Source: Acidobacteriaceae bacterium
GTDB taxonomy: Bacteria > Acidobacteriota > Terriglobia > Terriglobales > SbA1
Reading direction: 5' to 3'
NCBI GenBank assembly: GCA_003156615.1
Contig: PMHI01000349.1
Coordinates: 4,974-20,917, forward strand
Length of the DNA: 15,944 nt
Positions within the stretch are counted from its first letter, which is position 1, and every line of letters begins with the position of its first letter. The notes beneath the pieces were generated by a model. The model was not told where the DNA came from, did no database searches, and saw nothing but the letters and a program-made list of their open reading frames with translations. The position numbers and the translations under genes are program-made. Shown here piece by piece: positions 317-15,944 of the stretch.

Positions 317-1771
317 TCAGCTTCCTATGTGCGCGTCGAATACGCCCGTCTCGACCTGACCATGCCGCTTCACCTGTACAAACAAACGGTAGTCGCCCGG
401 CTGGGGAAAGCCATAAGGAAACGAAATTTCATCCGTAGCATGCATGGAGCCGCAGTCCATGGGCATTCCGAAATCCTTTTGCGCAATCGTGAGTGACGCC
501 ATCGGTACCGATCCAGCTGGATGGATGTGAGCAAAGACAGAAAAATCTGATCTTACGAATTCTGCGTGACCGGCCATCCCCATGTAGGGTTCCAGATCCT
601 TAGCCGGCTTATGCTCGGGGTCTTCGATGCGAAAACGTAACCAGGAAAGCTGCCCGGCTTTCAAGACCGCTCCATTTTTTTCTCCATCCTGCTCCCAGAC
701 CATGCGACCACCATCCGCCAGCGGCGAAACATTCGTGGTGTGGACATCGAGGGCCTCTGCATCCACACCCGAATCGTCGCCCGAGAATGGTTCTCCTGTC
801 ACATTGGGCAAGTCGATTTCGCTGACCATGGTCTCCGGGAATCCGGTGCTGCGAACAATGTCGCCGAAAATCTTGTATTTTCCCGACGGAATTGCGGGCA
901 GCTTCAGAGTGAACGATCCATCGTTGGCTTGTTCCGGATGTAAATGATAAAAGCGGTCCATCGCGGGGACTCGTACAAGGAATACATGCATCAGGTGCCC
1001 GTGATCTGGAATCAGGGTCATCGACCATTGATCCTTGCGGATCTTGTGCCAGGAGTCTTCCTCCATCCGCAACGTGAGCTGATCAAAGCCGTCGAAGGAA
1101 ACTCTGAGCGGGGGAGCGCTATAGACCGTGTTTCGCTTCAGGTCAGCGGCCTGGGCGTTCCACCACCAGTTTCCCAAGGCAAGCACAGTGACAACCAGCG
1201 CACCCGCAACCGCCATTGCGATTCGTCCAAGACGTCTGTTCTGTGGCGAAGGAATGGCCGCGGCTCGGAGACCACCTTCCCGTGCCGCTGCTCCCGCGAT
1301 GGAGACAATCCCCACGGAGAGCAGTAGCATGAGTCCGAAGAGCAAGGTGCCAAGCGCCTTTTGCATGGGCAAGGTTCGCCGCGCAAACGCGGGAACAGGA
1401 ACGGCCAGCCTGCCGATTCCTTGCGGCCCGGAGACCTCGACACGGATCTCCCACGAGCCCGACTCCATCAGCCAAACCTTGCCCGTGAACCATTGTGGAT
1501 CGGCGCCAGATTGCATCAAGTCGGGGGTTGGGGGCAGACCTTGATCTTTGCCGTTTATATAAACCGGTGTAATTCTGATGCTCTTCACAGTGCCGGATGC
1601 AACCCGAACTTGCACTTGCGCGATGCCAGGAACCATGGCCGGCGGATTCACCGAGAGCAATAAGTGATAGGGTCCGGCATCGCCCTCTAAATACACGTTC
1701 GGGCTTCCGACGTGCGCAAAGGCCGAGGAGCTCGACATCAAGATCAGAACAGCTAGTCCACAGGCTCGCAT
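317..1771 (-). CDS. Membrane-anchored periplasmic protein with PmoB/AmoB-like architecture and His-rich C-terminus
   Basis: This 484-residue protein starts at an ATG preceded by AGGAAT. Residues 1-19 form a signal peptide ending AFA, so the mature protein would begin with His20, like the N-terminal metal-binding His of PmoB. Residues 20-130 look like a beta-sandwich. Hydrophobic helices lie near 137-162 and 184-206. The rest is a large periplasmic region. This order (beta domain, two helices, second periplasmic domain) is that of PmoB. The histidine pair of PmoB's copper site (G-D-W-H-V-H) corresponds to G-S-W-E-I-R around 106-110, so that site would be lost apart from His20. The C-terminal part holds two related His-rich units: HGHLMH (257-262) with HLHP (276-279), and GH (401-402) with HIHP (415-418). 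A Met/Cys/His cluster (MPMDCGSMH, 436-444) follows, which suggests copper handling. It lies 83 bases downstream of the PmoC/PmoA-like gene. It could instead be an unrelated YtkA/FixH-type protein, since the link to PmoB rests on topology and context. Confidence 0.6.
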   Translation of the reverse strand: MRACGLAVLILMSSSSAFAHVGSPNVYLEGDAGPYHLLLSVNPPAMVPGIAQVQVRVASGTVKSIRITPVYINGKDQGLPPTPDLMQSGADPQWFTGKVWLMESGSWEIRVEVSGPQGIGRLAVPVPAFARRTLPMQKALGTLLFGLMLLLSVGIVSIAGAAAREGGLRAAAIPSPQNRRLGRIAMAVAGALVVTVLALGNWWWNAQAADLKRNTVYSAPPLRVSFDGFDQLTLRMEEDSWHKIRKDQWSMTLIPDHGHLMHVFLVRVPAMDRFYHLHPEQANDGSFTLKLPAIPSGKYKIFGDIVRSTGFPETMVSEIDLPNVTGEPFSGDDSGVDAEALDVHTTNVSPLADGGRMVWEQDGEKNGAVLKAGQLSWLRFRIEDPEHKPAKDLEPYMGMAGHAEFVRSDFSVFAHIHPAGSVPMASLTIAQKDFGMPMDCGSMHATDEISFPYGFPQPGDYRLFVQVKRHGQVETGVFDAHIGS

Positions 1772-1854: not shown

Positions 1855-3048
1855 CTAACGCTGAATACGACGCATCCAGTCCCCCCACAACATGCCGATG
1901 CGCGCTGAAAGTGCGGTCGCCACCAGCGCGATCAGTATCCCGACCCAGAATCCAACTCGCGTCTTTTCGTAAGACTGGAACTCCCACGCCAGGTGATATT
2001 GAGAAGGGGGAAAGTTGTAGCCAAATTCGTTCATGGCGAAAATCCGGTTGCGGGCGTAAGCAGACATCATGAAGTAGGCGAATGGCCAGTTCACCGCCAG
2101 ACTCGCAGCCGTGAAGCCGATGCCGCCCACCACCGCCTTCCACGTGTCTCCGTGGCCGGCAAATCGATTGAGAACCAGATCCAGAACGATGGCCCCGGGG
2201 AGCAGCAACACGGGAAACCCGAGCGGCACCATGTGAGTGATCGGGGTGAAGACGGGTCCAAGCTTCGCGTGTGCGGGAAACAGTGGGAAAATCCAATTGC
2301 CGGCGAGCCACAAGCCGCTGTAGATCGAGGCCACAATCGTGGCGGCCCAACGGCGTCCTGAGGTTCGAGCAATTCCGACCAGCACGACTGGTGCGATCAT
2401 GCCGAGTACACGATAGTAGATCGCGCTGTGCATCAGAGTTTGGTCGCCGATGTATTCATAGCCCAGCATGAGCAGCAGACACAGAAGCAGCGATCCGTTG
2501 TACAAAAGGATCTGGTTAAACTTGTCTCGGCTTTGCCCGGATGACAGGTTCATCTGGCCGGTGGTTAGGACCAGTCCGCCTGCGCCCATGACGAAGATTC
2601 CCAATAGCAGCACCACGTGGGGCGGGCTAAGAATGGTTACGTCCAGGCCATAGGAGTCGTGCCACCAGTTGTCGAAGGGGGCAGACGTAAGCATGCAAAA
2701 TCCGCCCCACGCCCCAATGAACGCGCCCAGTGGGCCACGCAGCCCCCAGATCTTCACCGATCTCTCTTGACTTGCACCATCACCCGCGAAAGTAGTGTGC
2801 AGAATCAACCAGGCGCAGGAAAGTCCGGTGAGCAACGCTCCAAACTGAATGGCCAAGTGAGCGGGCGTCCAAAATGTGTCGCGCCCGATTCCGACATGCC
2901 AGGAAATATCCCAGTAAAGACCCACGGTGGTAGACGTCACGGCCATAGCGGCCGACCAAACATACCAAGGCACTGCACTCACTCGGAGCGAAGACAGTTC
3001 CCTGGCTGCCGCAGTAACCGGCATCGGTATACGTATACTCTCTACCAT
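1855..3048 (-). CDS. Divergent copper membrane monooxygenase-like protein: PmoC-PmoA fusion
   Basis: A 397-residue polytopic membrane protein with about ten predicted helices. Residues 47-64 read DISWHVGIGRDTFWTPAH. The PmoC CuC-site segment, recalled from Methylococcus, is DGTWHQTIVRDTDFTPSH: 10 of 18 identical with identical D-x3-H-x12-H spacing (D47, H51, H64). Residues 126-144 (DNWWHDSYGLDVTILSPPH) match the spacing of the PmoC CuD site N-x3-H-x13-H, with Asp126 in place of Asn and H130 and H144 kept. The C-terminal half resembles PmoA: PGAIVLDLVL at 284-293 (PmoA PGAIILDTVL), NWP at 320-322, GYN at 343-345, and a last helix ending in a W-G-D-W type segment. PmoC and PmoA are normally separate proteins of roughly 250-290 residues, so this is a compact fusion lacking the usual PmoC N-terminal region. 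It would sit in the cytoplasmic membrane and be the metal-bearing core of a complex with the B-like protein. The substrate is unknown. The start is set by AGGAG seven bases upstream. An in-frame ATG at 3123 lacks such a site. Confidence 0.8.
   Translation of the reverse strand: MVESIRIPMPVTAAARELSSLRVSAVPWYVWSAAMAVTSTTVGLYWDISWHVGIGRDTFWTPAHLAIQFGALLTGLSCAWLILHTTFAGDGASQERSVKIWGLRGPLGAFIGAWGGFCMLTSAPFDNWWHDSYGLDVTILSPPHVVLLLGIFVMGAGGLVLTTGQMNLSSGQSRDKFNQILLYNGSLLLCLLLMLGYEYIGDQTLMHSAIYYRVLGMIAPVVLVGIARTSGRRWAATIVASIYSGLWLAGNWIFPLFPAHAKLGPVFTPITHMVPLGFPVLLLPGAIVLDLVLNRFAGHGDTWKAVVGGIGFTAASLAVNWPFAYFMMSAYARNRIFAMNEFGYNFPPSQYHLAWEFQSYEKTRVGFWVGILIALVATALSARIGMLWGDWMRRIQR
3027..3038. repeat. Perfect 12-base palindrome GTATACGTATAC near the start of the PmoC/PmoA-like gene
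   Basis: The sequence equals its own reverse complement and begins ten bases after the start codon of the minus-strand gene, where it encodes part of SIRIP. It might serve as an operator or be chance. No second copy was noticed in the window. Confidence 0.35.
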
Positions 3049-3055
3049 AAAATCA

Positions 3056-3060
3056 CTCCT
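3056..3060 (-). promoter_or_regulatory. Ribosome binding site deciding the start of the PmoC/PmoA-like gene
   Basis: On the minus strand AGGAG is followed by seven bases and then ATG at 3048. This selects the 397-residue product over the longer reading from 3123, whose extra 25 residues are polar and have no ribosome binding site. Confidence 0.75.
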
Positions 3061-3272
3061 TGACGACTGGAAGTACGGCGTCGGAACCTGGGAGCCATGA
3101 TTTAAAGCAACCCCGCGGTTCAAAGGCAGGATTCCGCTTTCGCCTAGAGTAACCCATCGACCGCCGCTTGCTTATGTCAAATCCGCGGCCTGCCTGGGGA
3201 GTGAGGTGAACCGACGGTTCTGCGCGGCGAACCGCGCTCGCGATAAGCTGCGATAGCAACCCGTCATAGGTT

Positions 3273-3404: not shown

Positions 3405-3521
3405 AACTATCGCAGATTGGGCTCGGCTGTTTGGCTTTCTCCGTCGAACGCATGAGCCATGCGACGAACTGCGGGTTTGGAGCGGCAGAACGAGTCTCGA
3501 GGGCAGCGTTCCTGCGCTAGA

Positions 3522-4610
3522 ATGCTGCTCATGGCCAGCGACCGCCCACTGCGTTTCCCATCGTTCTGGCAGCTGCAGATGATGGGATGGGTGTGCATAT
3601 ACGTGCTGATGCTGGTGGCATGTATCCCTGATCTTTTCCAAAAACCAGGAGTGCTGCGCGACAGCACCTTGGCTGTGGTCTTCATGTTCTTCGGCAGTTG
3701 CATTCTCCATCCCGTTTGCCGATCGCTGCTGCGCCGCTCACCTACATGGCTCGCTTTCGAGCTCAGGATCTCCGCATGGTCCTTGGTTGTGGGAACGGCG
3801 AGTGCAATCGCGGCTGAATTCACAGTGCTGGCGTTCCGCAAAATGGATTGGCCTGACCTGGCGAGTAACTCCGTGCAGTTTTCGGTTGTGCTTTTTCTCT
3901 GGTGCAGTCTGTACTTCAGCATCAAGCAATGGCAGCAGTCGACTCAGGAGCGAGAACGCCTGCTGCGCGCCGAAAACGAGGCCCGCGAAGCGCGGCTCAG
4001 CGCTTTGCGTTATCAGCTGAATCCGCACTTCCTCTTTAATTCGCTGAATGCGGTTTCTACTCTGGTTCTCGATGGGAATGCTCCCGCCGCCACCCGCATG
4101 CTGGCGCAGATCGGGGAACTTCTGCGCACCAGCCTGGATAGCGAAGTCATCCCGGAAGTTACGCTTTCTCGAGAGATGGAGTTTACGCGGCGGTATCTCG
4201 CCATCGAGCAGACCCGGCTGGGGGAGCGGTTGCAGGTCGATTTGGCGATTCCCTCCGACACTCTGGATGCACTGGTACCCAGCATGTTGCTGCAGCCGTT
4301 GGTGGAGAACGCTGTCCGCCATGGCGTAGTGCCAATGGTTCAAGGCGGAAGGATTATGATCACGAGTGCCATTCGCGCTGACCGGTTGCAGATGGTGATC
4401 GGGAATTCCGGCATTCGCCGAGATGAACAACGCAATAAAAATGGGAACGGAATTGGCCTCAGAAATACCGCAGAACGATTGAAGACGCTGTACCGCGATG
4501 ACCATCGCTTTACTTTGCAGTGGCCGGAGACCGGGGGTTGTCAGGTAATCATCGAATTGCCTTTCCGAAAAATTGTCCAAAACGTAGAGGAAGCAACGTG
4601 CGCGCAGTAA
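3522..4610 (+). CDS. LytS/YehU-family sensor histidine kinase (His_kinase PF06580 type)
   Basis: Membrane sensor kinase of 362 residues from the ATG at 3522. An in-frame ATG at 3531 is equally possible, and neither has a clear ribosome binding site. Four hydrophobic segments in the first about 130 residues form the membrane sensor part. A short coiled coil rich in Glu and Arg (QERERLLRAENEAREARL) leads to the phosphoacceptor motif ALRYQLNPHFLFNSLN, with His169 in this numbering. The ATP-binding region shows LLQPLVENAVRHG (N box) and NGNGIGLRNTAERL (G box), as expected for the LytS class, which phosphorylates LytTR regulators. It overlaps the following response regulator by 13 bases, so the two are translationally coupled. 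It is divergent from the CuMMO-like operon, with 473 bases between the two starts, which makes it a candidate regulator of that operon (inference). The signal sensed is unknown. Confidence 0.92.
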   Translation: MLLMASDRPLRFPSFWQLQMMGWVCIYVLMLVACIPDLFQKPGVLRDSTLAVVFMFFGSCILHPVCRSLLRRSPTWLAFELRISAWSLVVGTASAIAAEFTVLAFRKMDWPDLASNSVQFSVVLFLWCSLYFSIKQWQQSTQERERLLRAENEAREARLSALRYQLNPHFLFNSLNAVSTLVLDGNAPAATRMLAQIGELLRTSLDSEVIPEVTLSREMEFTRRYLAIEQTRLGERLQVDLAIPSDTLDALVPSMLLQPLVENAVRHGVVPMVQGGRIMITSAIRADRLQMVIGNSGIRRDEQRNKNGNGIGLRNTAERLKTLYRDDHRFTLQWPETGGCQVIIELPFRKIVQNVEEATCAQ

Positions 4611-5356
4611 TTGTCGACGATGAGCCTCTGGCGCGACGCGGCGTCAGGCTCCGGCTGCAGAAGTTTAAGGATATCGAAATCGTCGGCGAGTGCGGAGACG
4701 GTGCGTCCGCGGTCGGGAAGATTGTTGAGCTCTCTCCAGATGTTGTCTTCCTCGATGTCCAAATGCCCGGCATGGATGGGTTCGAGGTTCTTCGGGCTTT
4801 GCCGCGGGAGAATCTGCCCTCCGTTATCTTTCTTACCGCTTACGAGCAGCACGCTTTGCGCGCGTTCGAGGTCCATGCGTTGGACTACCTGCTTAAGCCC
4901 GTCGACGACGAACGTTTTAGCGCCGCTGTGCAACGAGCCAGGCAGGCGGGCGATGCCGGTTCCAGGATTCAGATGGCCGAACGAATCCTGCAGATGCTTC
5001 AGCGCGATTCCGTGCGGTACCCATCCCGTTATCCGGTGCGAATTGGTTCGCGGATTCAGGTTGTGCTTACCGACGACATCGAATGGATCGCGGCAGCGGG
5101 AGATTACGTGGAATTACGCGTTGGCGGGCGATGTCATTTGTTGCGTGAGACCATGAATTCTCTGGAAGAGAAACTCGATCCCGCGCAGTTTCTTCGCATT
5201 CATCGTTCCCGGATCCTGCGCGTCAAATGCATCCGGGAACTTAGAAACATCGACAATCGAGAGTATCTGGTGAAGCTATCCGACGGCTCAGAGCACCGCT
5301 CCAGCCGAACCTACGCCGATCGTCTGGAAAATTGGCTATCTTCCCCAAAACCTTGA
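4598..5356 (+). CDS. LytTR-family response regulator
   Basis: Cytoplasmic 252-residue regulator starting at GTG (4598), preceded by GAGGAAG and overlapping the kinase stop. The N-terminal receiver domain (about 1-120) has the acidic pair D7-D8, the phosphoacceptor Asp53 in FLDVQMPGMDG, the Thr of FLTAYE and the Lys of LLKPVDD. The C-terminal half (about 145-250) is a LytTR DNA-binding domain, with a start of the type VRIGSRIQVVLTDDIEWIAA, then AGDYVELRV, the signature FLRIHRSRILR and a terminal L-SDG-E-SR segment. The pair is a complete LytS/LytTR two-component system. Its targets cannot be read from this window. The nearest divergent operon is the CuMMO-like one. Confidence 0.93.
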   Translation: MRAVIVDDEPLARRGVRLRLQKFKDIEIVGECGDGASAVGKIVELSPDVVFLDVQMPGMDGFEVLRALPRENLPSVIFLTAYEQHALRAFEVHALDYLLKPVDDERFSAAVQRARQAGDAGSRIQMAERILQMLQRDSVRYPSRYPVRIGSRIQVVLTDDIEWIAAAGDYVELRVGGRCHLLRETMNSLEEKLDPAQFLRIHRSRILRVKCIRELRNIDNREYLVKLSDGSEHRSSRTYADRLENWLSSPKP

Positions 5357-7778: not shown

Positions 7779-8995
7779 GGACCATGGGCAGCAACGCTTG
7801 GATTTCAGTTTTTCTTGTCGCGGTCTTAGCCACTGCTTTTGGGCACGCAACCGATCAAACAACCGTTGCCTTCAACTCACACCAGTCTTCAATCTCTGGG
7901 CCCTTCAGATTGGTGGATGGACGCATTTTTGTCGATGTTAGCGTGAACGAGGAAGGGCCGTTTGCCTTCATCTTCGACACCGGCGGCAACGCCGTTATCA
8001 GTACAAAATTGGCCGAGGGCTTGCATTTGTCCGCCGGTAACACCGAAACTGGGACGGGTACGGGAGAGAAGCCCGTAACGGCTGTCGATACTACGGTGCG
8101 AGAGCTGCAAATAGGAGACCTGCGGCTCTCGAATATAGCCTTCCACGCGATCTCCTTGGACGATGCTCCTGCAGTTTTTGGAAACCAGCCGCTGGATGGC
8201 ATCATTGGGTTCCCGATTCTCGAGCAGTTGATCGTCGAAGTCGACTACGAGACGAACCGGTTGAGGCTGACGCTGCCCTCTGACTATAGGCCACGAAATT
8301 CAGGAAACACTCTCCATTTTGAGCGGCCGCGTTGGGTCCCACTCGTCGAGGCCACTCTGGATGGCATTCGTGGAAATTGTGGACACCGGAGCACGCTTGT
8401 CGCTTCTGCTTTACGGTCCCTTCGTAGATCAAAACAATCTGCGCGCCAAGTACCATCCGGAGGTGAGCGGCATCACGGGCTGGGGACTCGGCGGGCCCAT
8501 TCGTTCTCAGATTGCTCGCGGCAAGATCGTCGCTTTGGGCAACCTAGAGGTCCACGATCCATTGGTTCGCCTGCCCTTGCAGACGACCGGCGGTCTTACG
8601 CTCTCGGACACTGCGGGGCTGATTGGCCCTGACATCTTGAGCCGGTTCAGTATCACGTTTGACTATGGCCGCCAATCGATCACCTTTCAAAAGAACCATT
8701 ACTACGGCAAGCGCTCTACTTTTGATCGAGTCGGCGTTTGGCTGGCCAGAATGACGCCAGCGCCAGCGCCGGTTTCAGCGTTATTGATGTAGTTTCAGGG
8801 AGTCCGGCAGACCGTGCGGGAATCAAGTGTGGTGACAAAATACTGGCCATCGACGGCACGCCAGTTAATTCGCTGGACCTTACGGCAGTTCGCGAACGGT
8901 TTAGAAGCGATCCGGCAGGCAGGAAATTGCGGCTGCGCGTGCAGTCTGGCTCTGAGGTGCGAGACGTGGTCCTTCGATTGAGGGACCTGGTCTGA
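7775..8995 (+). pseudogene. Two-domain aspartyl protease with C-terminal PDZ, broken by two frameshifts
   Basis: Three segments in order make one recognisable exported retropepsin-like protein of about 400 residues. Segment one (7775 to about 8375) has a signal peptide, the first catalytic motif FAFIFDTGGNAVIS (Asp68) and the flap/fold motif PLDGIIGFPILEQL. Segment two (about 8375 to 8745, next frame) has the second motif EIVDTGARLSLLL and IGPDILSRFSITFDYGRQSI. Segment three (about 8750 to 8995, back in the first frame) is a PDZ domain with GFSVIDVVSGSPADRAGIK and GDKILAIDG. The two shifts are opposite in direction and restore the frame. All key motifs are intact, so the breaks are recent or are sequencing errors. 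If the gene is functional in vivo, the corrected product would be a periplasmic peptidase. Confidence 0.75.
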
Positions 8996-13259: not shown

Positions 13260-14261
13260 ATGAAACTGTCGAGTCTGCTGTGTCTGAGTCTTCTTCTGGG
13301 TATTTGCAGCGGCGTTGGGCACGCGGTTTCCTTCAAGTACAAGCGCCTGGGCAACCCGCAGGACGTGCAGGTCCGTCCTGAGGCCGGGATCGCCATGATG
13401 GGCGGCGGTTCTGACCTGAGCGAAGCATTCCGCTGGCTGTGCGGCAAGGCCAACGGTGGCGACTTCCTGATTCTGCGGGCGCGCGGCAACGACGCCTACA
13501 ACCCGTACGTCAACGGCTTGTGCAAAGTGAATTCGGTGGCAACGCTGGTGATTTCCAGTCGAAAGGCCGCGCAGCAGCCGCGCGTGGCGGAGATCATCCG
13601 CCAGTCGGAAGCGGTTTTCATCGCCGGCGGCGATCAGTCACTCTATGTGAACTTCTGGAAGGGAAGTCCGGTGGAAGATGCCATCAACGCGCATGTGGCC
13701 GCGAGCAAACCCATCGGCGGGACCAGTGCGGGCCTGGCCGTGCTCGGACAGTTTGTCTTCGGCTGCTTGGAAGACAAACCGAATGATGCCGATCTCACGT
13801 CGCGCGAGGTTCTGACTGATCCCTACATGAAGCGGGTGACCGTGATACGCGATTTTCTGAAGGTTCCCGGTCTGGATAACATTCTTACGGATAGTCACTT
13901 CGCCAGGCGCGACCGCATGGGGAGAAGCCTGGGATTCCTGGCGCGCATCGTGATGGATGGTTGGTCGAAAACGCCCCGTGAAATTGCCATCGATCAAACA
14001 TCGGCGCTGCTGGTAGATGGTAACGGCCGAGCAAAGATCGTGGGCACGGGCCTGGGCGTTTATTTTCTGCAAGTCACGGAAGCGCCGGAGGTATGTAAGC
14101 CCGGCCAGCCCTTGACCGTGCGCAACATTGCCGCCTATCACGCGCCCACGGGAGCCACGTTCGATGTGCGCGACTGGAACGGCGAAGGCGGGGAAAGCTA
14201 CGTGATCTCAGTCGACGCGGGCCAAGTCCGTACCAGCCGCATTGGAAATGCGGTTTATTAA
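13260..14261 (+). CDS. Secreted cyanophycinase-like peptidase (S51 family)
   Basis: A 333-residue protein with a signal peptide (MKLSSLLCLSLLLGICSGVGHA), starting at an ATG preceded by a weak AGG. The glutamine-amidotransferase-like fold of family S51 is indicated by GIAMMGGGSDLSEAF, FIAGGDQSLYV (oxyanion/GGDQ block), the nucleophile Ser156 in GGTSAGLAVL and the histidine block TDSHFARRDRMGR (His213). Intracellular cyanophycinases degrade cyanophycin to beta-Asp-Arg dipeptides. An exported member would act on external cyanophycin or another isoaspartyl-type polymer (inference). No cyanophycin synthetase is present in the window. It lies 79 bases after ptrB on the same strand, so two peptide-degrading enzymes are adjacent. 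Confidence 0.85.
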   Translation: MKLSSLLCLSLLLGICSGVGHAVSFKYKRLGNPQDVQVRPEAGIAMMGGGSDLSEAFRWLCGKANGGDFLILRARGNDAYNPYVNGLCKVNSVATLVISSRKAAQQPRVAEIIRQSEAVFIAGGDQSLYVNFWKGSPVEDAINAHVAASKPIGGTSAGLAVLGQFVFGCLEDKPNDADLTSREVLTDPYMKRVTVIRDFLKVPGLDNILTDSHFARRDRMGRSLGFLARIVMDGWSKTPREIAIDQTSALLVDGNGRAKIVGTGLGVYFLQVTEAPEVCKPGQPLTVRNIAAYHAPTGATFDVRDWNGEGGESYVISVDAGQVRTSRIGNAVY

Positions 14262-14759: not shown

Positions 14760-15845
14760 CTATGAGGTGCGTTTGACGATAAACACGCTCTTGTCGTCGA
14801 TCAAGGCTGAGTCGCCGTTCGCCCGGAGAATGTCGTCTTGCTTTACTGCGTAATCCAGCAAGGCGTTGCAAATGTCCCTGGCCGGCTGTCGGTAGTGTTC
14901 GCGCAAAACCATTTCCAGTTGCTCGCGCGCCTGTCTGTCGCTGCCGTCGTAAACTCCATCTGTATAGAGAACTAGAATATCCCCTGGACTCATCAGCGTT
15001 ATCTCACCGAGATCCGAAGATTCGACCTCTGTTTGCCGAAGGTTCAAGGAGTAGTATTTCTTACGATCCGGATGATTTGCGGGGATCTGCAAACCAAGCG
15101 CAAGAAATTGCACCATGCGGCTTTCATTGATGTTCATGAATTTGCGATACTCCGCCGAGAACACCAGCGGTGGAGGATGCCCGAAATTTGCAAAGCGAAA
15201 ATGGCCACCTGGGCGGACTTCGCCGTACACCATGGTTGCGATTTCGCGTGCGGCTTCTTTCTCGATGATCCCCAATGCGTTGCGGGCGGTCACCGATTGC
15301 GCCAGCCGCAGGTTGATGTTTTCGAGTAGCATGGGCGTTGTTCTGCCGTACCGATCTAGTTCGGTGAGCATCAAAGCCTGGAATGTGTCATGTACTGTGG
15401 ATGCGATCTTGGCTGCGATAAGTCCGTGTCCCTGTGCGTCTACGATCAGAACACCCGCCGTCGAATAAAGATCACGCAACTCTTCTGCAACACGCACCTG
15501 TTCGCAGCTCCTTGCGAATCGATACTCCGCTTCCATCTCGAGTCTGTAGCCTGGCATTGTTTTCAGCCACTGCACGTGATCGTCGACCGAATTGCGTAGA
15601 GGAACTCCTGGAGGAAGCGGCTCGAGAAACTCTTTTGACAGGCGTTGAGCCTGCTGAATGCGTGCGTCAATGTCGTAACGCTGTTGAAAATTAATGTATT
15701 CAAAAAGATCCCCACCGACAGTTTCAACAGGAATAGAATTCCCAAACATCTCGATGCCCGGGATGTGCGGTATCGCTCCTTCCGCCGGCATCAACCGCTC
15801 ACGCAGGTATTCATCGATGCTTGGAGCTGTGTTCGTCTTCGTCAT
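14760..15845 (-). CDS. SpoIIE/RsbU-type PP2C serine phosphatase
   Basis: A 361-residue protein from the ATG at 15845. The frame is open further upstream to 15938, but that extension is rich in Arg, Gly and Pro and looks non-coding. Neither start has a strong ribosome binding site. The PP2C metal-binding motifs are present: GGDLFEY (Asp46), VDAQGHG (Asp136), FANFGHPPPLVFS (212-230 region), LMSPGDILVLYTDGVYDG (Asp296) and DDKSVFIV near the C-terminus (Asp350/351). No membrane, GAF, PAS or receiver domain precedes them. Between the first and second motif there are about 85 residues instead of the usual 20 or so, forming a largely helical charged insertion. It probably acts in a partner-switching pathway by dephosphorylating an anti-sigma-factor antagonist. 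No such partner is in the window. Confidence 0.85.
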   Translation of the reverse strand: MTKTNTAPSIDEYLRERLMPAEGAIPHIPGIEMFGNSIPVETVGGDLFEYINFQQRYDIDARIQQAQRLSKEFLEPLPPGVPLRNSVDDHVQWLKTMPGYRLEMEAEYRFARSCEQVRVAEELRDLYSTAGVLIVDAQGHGLIAAKIASTVHDTFQALMLTELDRYGRTTPMLLENINLRLAQSVTARNALGIIEKEAAREIATMVYGEVRPGGHFRFANFGHPPPLVFSAEYRKFMNINESRMVQFLALGLQIPANHPDRKKYYSLNLRQTEVESSDLGEITLMSPGDILVLYTDGVYDGSDRQAREQLEMVLREHYRQPARDICNALLDYAVKQDDILRANGDSALIDDKSVFIVKRTS

Positions 15846-15944
15846 AAAAGAATCCGGCGGCAGTGCACTTCCGGGCATGATAGCAGACCGCATGGCAAGT
15901 CCTGCCCGCCCTTTTGCGCATGGCCGCGGTGAACCCACTTTTCT

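Follow-up and report, generated by a model that had tools for sequence, protein, structure and literature searches.

A likely undescribed copper oxygenase of environmental bacteria encoded by a PmoC/PmoA-like fused gene and its downstream partner

Copper membrane monooxygenases (CuMMOs) are presented in PMC6215863 as systems of three genes, xmoCAB. For the particulate methane monooxygenase (pMMO) of M. capsulatus, the accessible part of PMC12576850 gives D156, H160 and H173 of PmoC as CuC ligands and N227, H231 and H245 as CuD ligands, with R165 nearby. A divergent branch of Thermoplasmata (Ca. Angelarchaeales) was accepted as CuMMO because the CuC and CuB residues are kept, according to the excerpt of PMC9038741, the "D-sites" of which may differ from CuD. 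A survey of sponges with CuMMO hidden Markov models, as far as the excerpt of PMC8163846 extends, gave bacterial matches only in UBP10 metagenome-assembled genomes (MAGs) and in an unknown group, though the MAGs included Acidobacteriota and Gemmatimonadota. Here, a fused gene at 1855-3048 on the reverse strand of an Acidobacteriaceae DNA stretch of 15,944 nucleotides (contig PMHI01000349.1; "the window" denotes this whole stretch) was analyzed together with its downstream partner, p2. The two genes probably encode a copper oxygenase, hitherto undescribed, that occurs in environmental bacteria. Among the open-licence papers searched, none was recognised as reporting a PmoC-PmoA fusion.

The fused gene and its putative metal sites

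The open reading frame (ORF) at 1855-3048 is a real gene. It encodes 397 residues, its stop codon lies at 1855-1857, and a Shine-Dalgarno-like AAGGAG, read from the sequence at 3056-3061 on the same strand, is located 7 bases before the ATG (3046-3048). In single-sequence scans the protein alone matched no Pfam or NCBIfam family and no PDB sequence. Two sets of family members are used below: alignment A1 of 38 sequences, and 82 distinct near-full-length rows that were left from 88 loci once 4 partial and 2 repeated rows had been removed.

The six candidate metal residues D47, H51, H64, D126, H130 and H144 are invariant in 82/82 rows. They form a putative CuC-like site (D47, H51 and H64, with R56; 2857-2910, reverse strand) and a putative CuD-like site (D126, H130 and H144; 2617-2673, reverse strand), the spacings of which equal those derived from the ligand numbers of PmoC given above. 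The invariance of D47, H51, H64, H130 and H144 had been set beforehand as a test by the earlier note on this DNA, and D126 can now be added to it. R56 is by position the counterpart of PmoC R165 and is invariant as well, as are W46, W50, D57, W128, W129 and G134. Positions kept at 97% or more number 40 in all, 32 of them within residues 43-157, and all six metal residues and R56 are also present in L089, the most remote member found (E 2.0e-81). The D-x3-H-x12-H triad of CuC is present in every one of the 82 rows. Residues 47-64, DISWHVGIGRDTFWTPAH, equal the M. capsulatus PmoC segment at 10 of 18 positions in the alignment with 1yew_C, which shows this segment just as the earlier note gives it, with equal spacing. 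At the second site the D-x3-H-x13-H spacing claimed for residues 126-144 is present: both His of the CuD pattern N-x3-H-x13-H occur at equal spacing and in register, while Asn is replaced by Asp in 82/82 rows.

By sequence comparison the front half of the protein appears to be a remote relative of PmoC. When profile A1 was run against all PDB sequences, the PmoC chains 6cxh_C and 7s4l_C came first with E 0.0034, and the next entry stood at 6.2. Scanned singly, 12 of the 38 members matched Pfam AmoC (best E 0.0044; next family 3/38), and the NCBIfam PmoC and AmoC models were matched by 9/38 and 8/38 members (next model 2). All these matches lie under the curated cut-offs, that of PF04896 being reached by none of the 38; the window's own protein is not among the matching members, and unrelated Pfam models were matched by single members at up to E 0.0023. 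None of the outcomes that the earlier note had named as contradicting its reading was seen. Within the 41 carriers among 150 genomes sampled around a Gemmatimonadetes MAG, the AmoC model (E up to 1, under cut-off) matched inside the fused gene in 25 and elsewhere in 1, and 7 of 109 other genomes were matched; 14 of the 25 matches cover both metal sites, reaching model position 205 or beyond. In one of them (G747), translation showed that the match runs exactly from the D47 equivalent to the H144 equivalent, at model positions 125-214, which at an offset of 3 read from the alignments correspond to the CuC Asp and the last CuD His. The fused gene was the best AmoC match in 4 of the 6 carriers searched first. 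A weak AmoC match in G043 was rejected, its frame being a chromate transporter; the match in G049 reads alike.

Profile-profile comparison points in the same direction. The hhalign score of the fused family against PmoC was 38.2, with 150 column-permuted controls at or below 23.5 and the reversed control at 18.3. With 82 rows, E-values of 2.3e-5 for the N-terminal half against PmoC and of 4.1e-7 for hairpin 1 against PmoC hairpin 1 (controls 0/100) were obtained, each from a single comparison. D126, H130 and H144 are placed on the PmoC Asn, His and His in both hhalign alignments, in a stretch of low confidence. Hairpin 2 alone gave no significant hhalign match to either PmoC hairpin, the score being reached by 23/100 and 29/100 controls, and the PmoC profile reaches the second site in 18 of the 82 fused proteins, with E <0.1 in just 4. 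The PmoC, PmoA and PmoB alignments used here hold 11/15, 9/12 and 7/10 of the copies found, and they are narrow because all come from the verrucomicrobial sample; alignments from global-mode hhalign were meaningless. Taken as a whole, the likeness to PmoC/AmoC (PF04896) comprises the CuC triad followed by RD, the counterpart of R165, and, at the second site, two His 14 residues apart with P-x-H at the end. The fused protein differs in falling below the Pfam cut-off, in the change of the CuD Asn to Asp, in a second site that resembles a copy of the first, and in the PmoA-like half attached to it.

This resemblance between the two sites extends beyond the earlier note. The metal half (residues 28-168; 2545-2967, reverse strand) is a tandem duplication of one helical hairpin. 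In the model, hairpin 1 (residues 28-88; 2785-2967, reverse strand), a probable relative of the PmoC CuC hairpin, consists of helices 28-54 and 62-88, and its tandem copy, hairpin 2 (residues 107-168; 2545-2730, reverse strand), of helices 107-133 and 142-168, so that the boundaries recur at offsets of 79, 79, 80 and 80. A shift of 79 residues superposes five near-invariant positions that have the same amino acid (D47/D126, W50/W129, H51/H130, G55/G134 and D57/D136), a coincidence reached by 1 of 5,000 permutations when the threshold is 95% and by 21 of 5,000 when it is 90%. Each copy bears the motif D-x2-W-H-x3-G-x-D-x(4-5)-P-x-H. With 82 rows, hhalign of hairpin 1 against hairpin 2 gave 1.1e-4 (controls 0/150); with 38 rows the same repeat was marginal (11/200 controls). 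The internal repeat was not detectable in PmoC by profile comparison with the narrow PmoC alignment. Since it is detectable in the fused family and not in PmoC, its extension to the CuC and CuD sites of pMMO is a proposal of our own. From the positions of the hairpin helices, the six metal residues are expected near one membrane face, and this face is placed outside the cytoplasm because the density of Lys plus Arg over the 82 rows is 0.19 in the presumed inner loops and 0.08 in the outer loops. About ten membrane helices are predicted in total, and both metal sites are expected on the periplasmic side.

The PmoA-like half and the partner gene p2

Residues 170-397 (1858-2541, reverse strand) are predicted to fold like PmoA. 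With the model of the fused protein, rows 1-12 of the VIA-align output are all PmoA/AmoA, PmoC being absent among the rows listed, and Foldseek places PmoA/AmoA at rank 1; the PmoA-fold subunit by which the CuMMO superfamily is recognised is thus found as a predicted fold. A search for viral relatives by fold gave no match at E <0.4. The sequence signal is weak, the hhalign score being reached by 3/150 controls, and the sequence similarity of this half to PmoA is not significant. PGAIVLDLVL, NWP and GYN, which had been named as PmoA-order motifs, are present in that order when compared with 1yew_B; of these only part is conserved across the fused family, with D290 in 81/82 rows and W321 in 79/82, and GYN is not. 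FP, D and W positions are common to both in the profile alignment, and the likeness covers the register over the whole of residues 170-397. The stretch GDWSFWxDWKDR, conserved in PmoA, is not seen in A1. The proposal of a PmoC-PmoA fusion in 397 residues is supported, the PmoC half by the PDB profile search, family scans, genome searches in both directions and hhalign, and the PmoA half by predicted fold and register.

The fused gene opens a strict two-gene operon with an obligate downstream partner, p2 (317-1771, reverse strand; 484 residues), which had been missed in the earlier note. The two adjoin in 83 of 88 loci; the sequence of the remaining 5 stops within 105 bases. Both are found in the same 41 of 150 genomes. 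When the flanking ORFs of the 88 loci were clustered, no further gene with a constant position emerged. The protein begins with a signal peptide read from the sequence (residues 1-19; 1715-1771), with predicted cleavage at AFA|H20, followed by a CopC/CrdA-like domain 1 (residues 20-130; 1382-1714), two transmembrane helices according to the model (residues 138-165 and 176-214; 1130-1360) and C-terminal beta domains (residues 220-484; 320-1114) with conserved His at 257, 262, 276, 278, 402, 415 and 417, all on the reverse strand.

PmoB is built of a signal peptide, an N-terminal His of the mature protein, a beta domain, two transmembrane helices and one or more beta domains. The same layout is seen in p2, which is likewise the downstream gene. 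In comparison with the three-His CuB site of PmoB, H20, the predicted mature N-terminus, is kept in 75/77 rows, but domain 1 is without a conserved internal His; p2 differs further in having no sequence similarity to PmoB/AmoB and an extra C-terminal beta domain. That p2 is a true PmoB was rejected, as hhalign gave no profile link to the narrow PmoB alignment, and PmoB is absent among the listed VIA-align fold matches; for lack of that link, p2 is called PmoB-like in layout only. Domain 1 is best matched, in sequence and by VIA-align, by the CopC-like H. pylori CrdA, whereas in a Foldseek search with the p2 model complement and receptor beta domains lead and CrdA stands at rank 31. CrdA is described in the available part of PMC9182242 as a CopC-like Greek-key barrel, and as having no His; p2 is a larger protein with two transmembrane helices.

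Distribution and weighing of explanations

Relatives of the fused protein number 7,702 among 7,999 database candidates scored. "Hypothetical protein" is the only name among the 120 listed, the family having no assignment of its own, and a relative of 83% identity is named from Candidatus Sulfotelmatobacter. The genome scan yielded 41 loci with the fused gene, mostly from Acidobacteria, Gemmatimonadetes and Verrucomicrobia, including the cultured Terriglobus roseus DSM 18391. Profile A1 matches 17 of the 297 genomes sampled from the phylum of T. roseus, 14 of them near full length, 2 as fragments and 1 as a true PmoC (A1 E 1.7e-4; Pfam AmoC E 1.3e-87). This true PmoC gene stands at a contig end (L088:2497-3279, forward strand). 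The sample around a Gemmatimonadetes MAG has 41 carriers among 150 genomes, and that around a Verrucomicrobia MAG (387 genomes) has the fused gene in 1, PmoC over the cut-off in 6 others and both in none. PmoC over the Pfam cut-off was found in 0/6 carriers of the first search and in 0/150 genomes of the Gemmatimonadetes-MAG sample; among the 14 carriers of the T. roseus phylum sample, the PmoC test covered T. roseus alone. In the genome samples searched, no co-occurrence of the fused family with ordinary CuMMOs was observed.

The explanation we consider best, and hold to be somewhat more probable than not, is that the two genes encode a copper-dependent membrane oxygenase, composed of a single-chain PmoC/PmoA-like core with two paired D-H-H metal sites and an exported PmoB-like partner supplying or supporting copper. 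The main rival is copper transport. The pair might work like CopC-CopD, with p2 binding copper outside and passing it to the His/Asp sites of the membrane protein, in which case a CuMMO-derived fold would be retained without oxygenase chemistry. The match of p2 domain 1 to CrdA and the lack of metabolic neighbours at the loci agree with such a role. CopD (PF05425) is absent among the 25 families listed of the 34 matched by the 38 members. We regard copper transport as an unlikely explanation. Rather less probable is that the front half alone is CuMMO-derived and the back half an unrelated membrane domain, its PmoA likeness reflecting a common helical arrangement. The sequence signal of that half would permit this, while the fold matches and register described above favor PmoA.

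Four invariant His in a four-helix bundle are also the pattern of a bis-His heme, and the protein could hold heme b or another metal such as zinc or iron, the likeness to PmoC being convergent. Two invariant Asp at PmoC spacing together with R56, the lead of PmoC models in separate searches, and a partner that suggests copper make this improbable. That an ordinary membrane protein matches the motif by chance would be in keeping with the modest individual E-values and with the weak AmoC matches to unrelated frames. It was rejected on the basis of residue invariance and permuted controls, since six metal residues do not vary in 82 rows, hhalign controls were 0/150 and 0/100, and a true PmoC is the sole non-family match to A1 at E 0.001 among the 297 genomes; the probability left to it is very small.

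For the copper oxygenase, the following course can be envisaged. The single-chain core would bind copper on the non-cytoplasmic side, either at one D-H-H site or at both. The copper may be present as a close pair, since Asp takes the place of the CuD Asn in 82/82 rows. p2 would load copper into the core or stabilise it, and O2 would be activated at the CuC/CuD-like sites. As no PmoC exceeding the Pfam cut-off occurs in the carrier genomes tested, the substrate would more likely be a compound that is small or dissolved in the membrane than methane or ammonia in bulk. We infer common descent with pMMO, ammonia monooxygenase (AMO) and hydrocarbon monooxygenase (HMO), the pair representing a divergent, fused, two-gene branch of the superfamily. 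The C and A parts lie in one ORF followed by p2, giving two genes and not three separate ones, with the order C-A-B kept. The Thermoplasmata CuMMOs (excerpt of PMC9038741) are comparable as another highly divergent branch, but have separate A, B and C proteins and keep all three CuB His. A bolder proposal, offered tentatively and considered rather doubtful at present, is that the fused protein keeps an older active-site layout, in which two equivalent facing D-H-H sites bind a metal pair; CuC and CuD would then be diverged remains of the duplicated hairpin, and Acidobacteriota and Gemmatimonadota would harbour an extensive, so far unrecognised class of copper oxygenases with a single-chain core and two genes.

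Neighbouring genes and significance

Divergent from the fused gene, a LytS-type histidine kinase (PF06580) and then a LytTR response regulator are encoded at 3459-5356 (forward strand). Regulators similar to this pair recur near some relatives of the fused gene, and response-regulator-like ORFs occur in 13 of the 88 loci at scattered distances. The most divergent member (genome G451) has a di-haem cytochrome c peroxidase gene (L089:6721-8037, reverse strand; CCP_MauG, E 3.5e-38) immediately upstream of its fused gene. Elsewhere in the window, an aspartyl-protease-like ORF (PF13650; 7775-8995, forward strand), with a PDZ domain at 8738-8995, is seemingly split over several frames and may be a frameshift or pseudogene. 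A Peptidase S51 family protein, presumably of the cyanophycinase-like subtype, is located at 13260-14261 (forward strand), and a SpoIIE-type phosphatase at 14760-15938 (reverse strand).

Aerobic oxidation of methane and of ammonia begins with a step controlled by the pMMO/AMO superfamily, for which the catalytic metal site is still under debate. With CuC/CuD-type residues strictly kept, and with PmoA-like and PmoB-like parts changed beyond recognition by sequence, a remote branch would offer a natural experiment on which site is indispensable, and a single-chain core may be easier to express than a three-subunit enzyme. Should the pair prove to be an oxygenase, a function could be assigned to thousands of so far unannotated proteins from environmental bacteria, which surveys based on the present PmoA and PmoC models with their cut-offs would miss.
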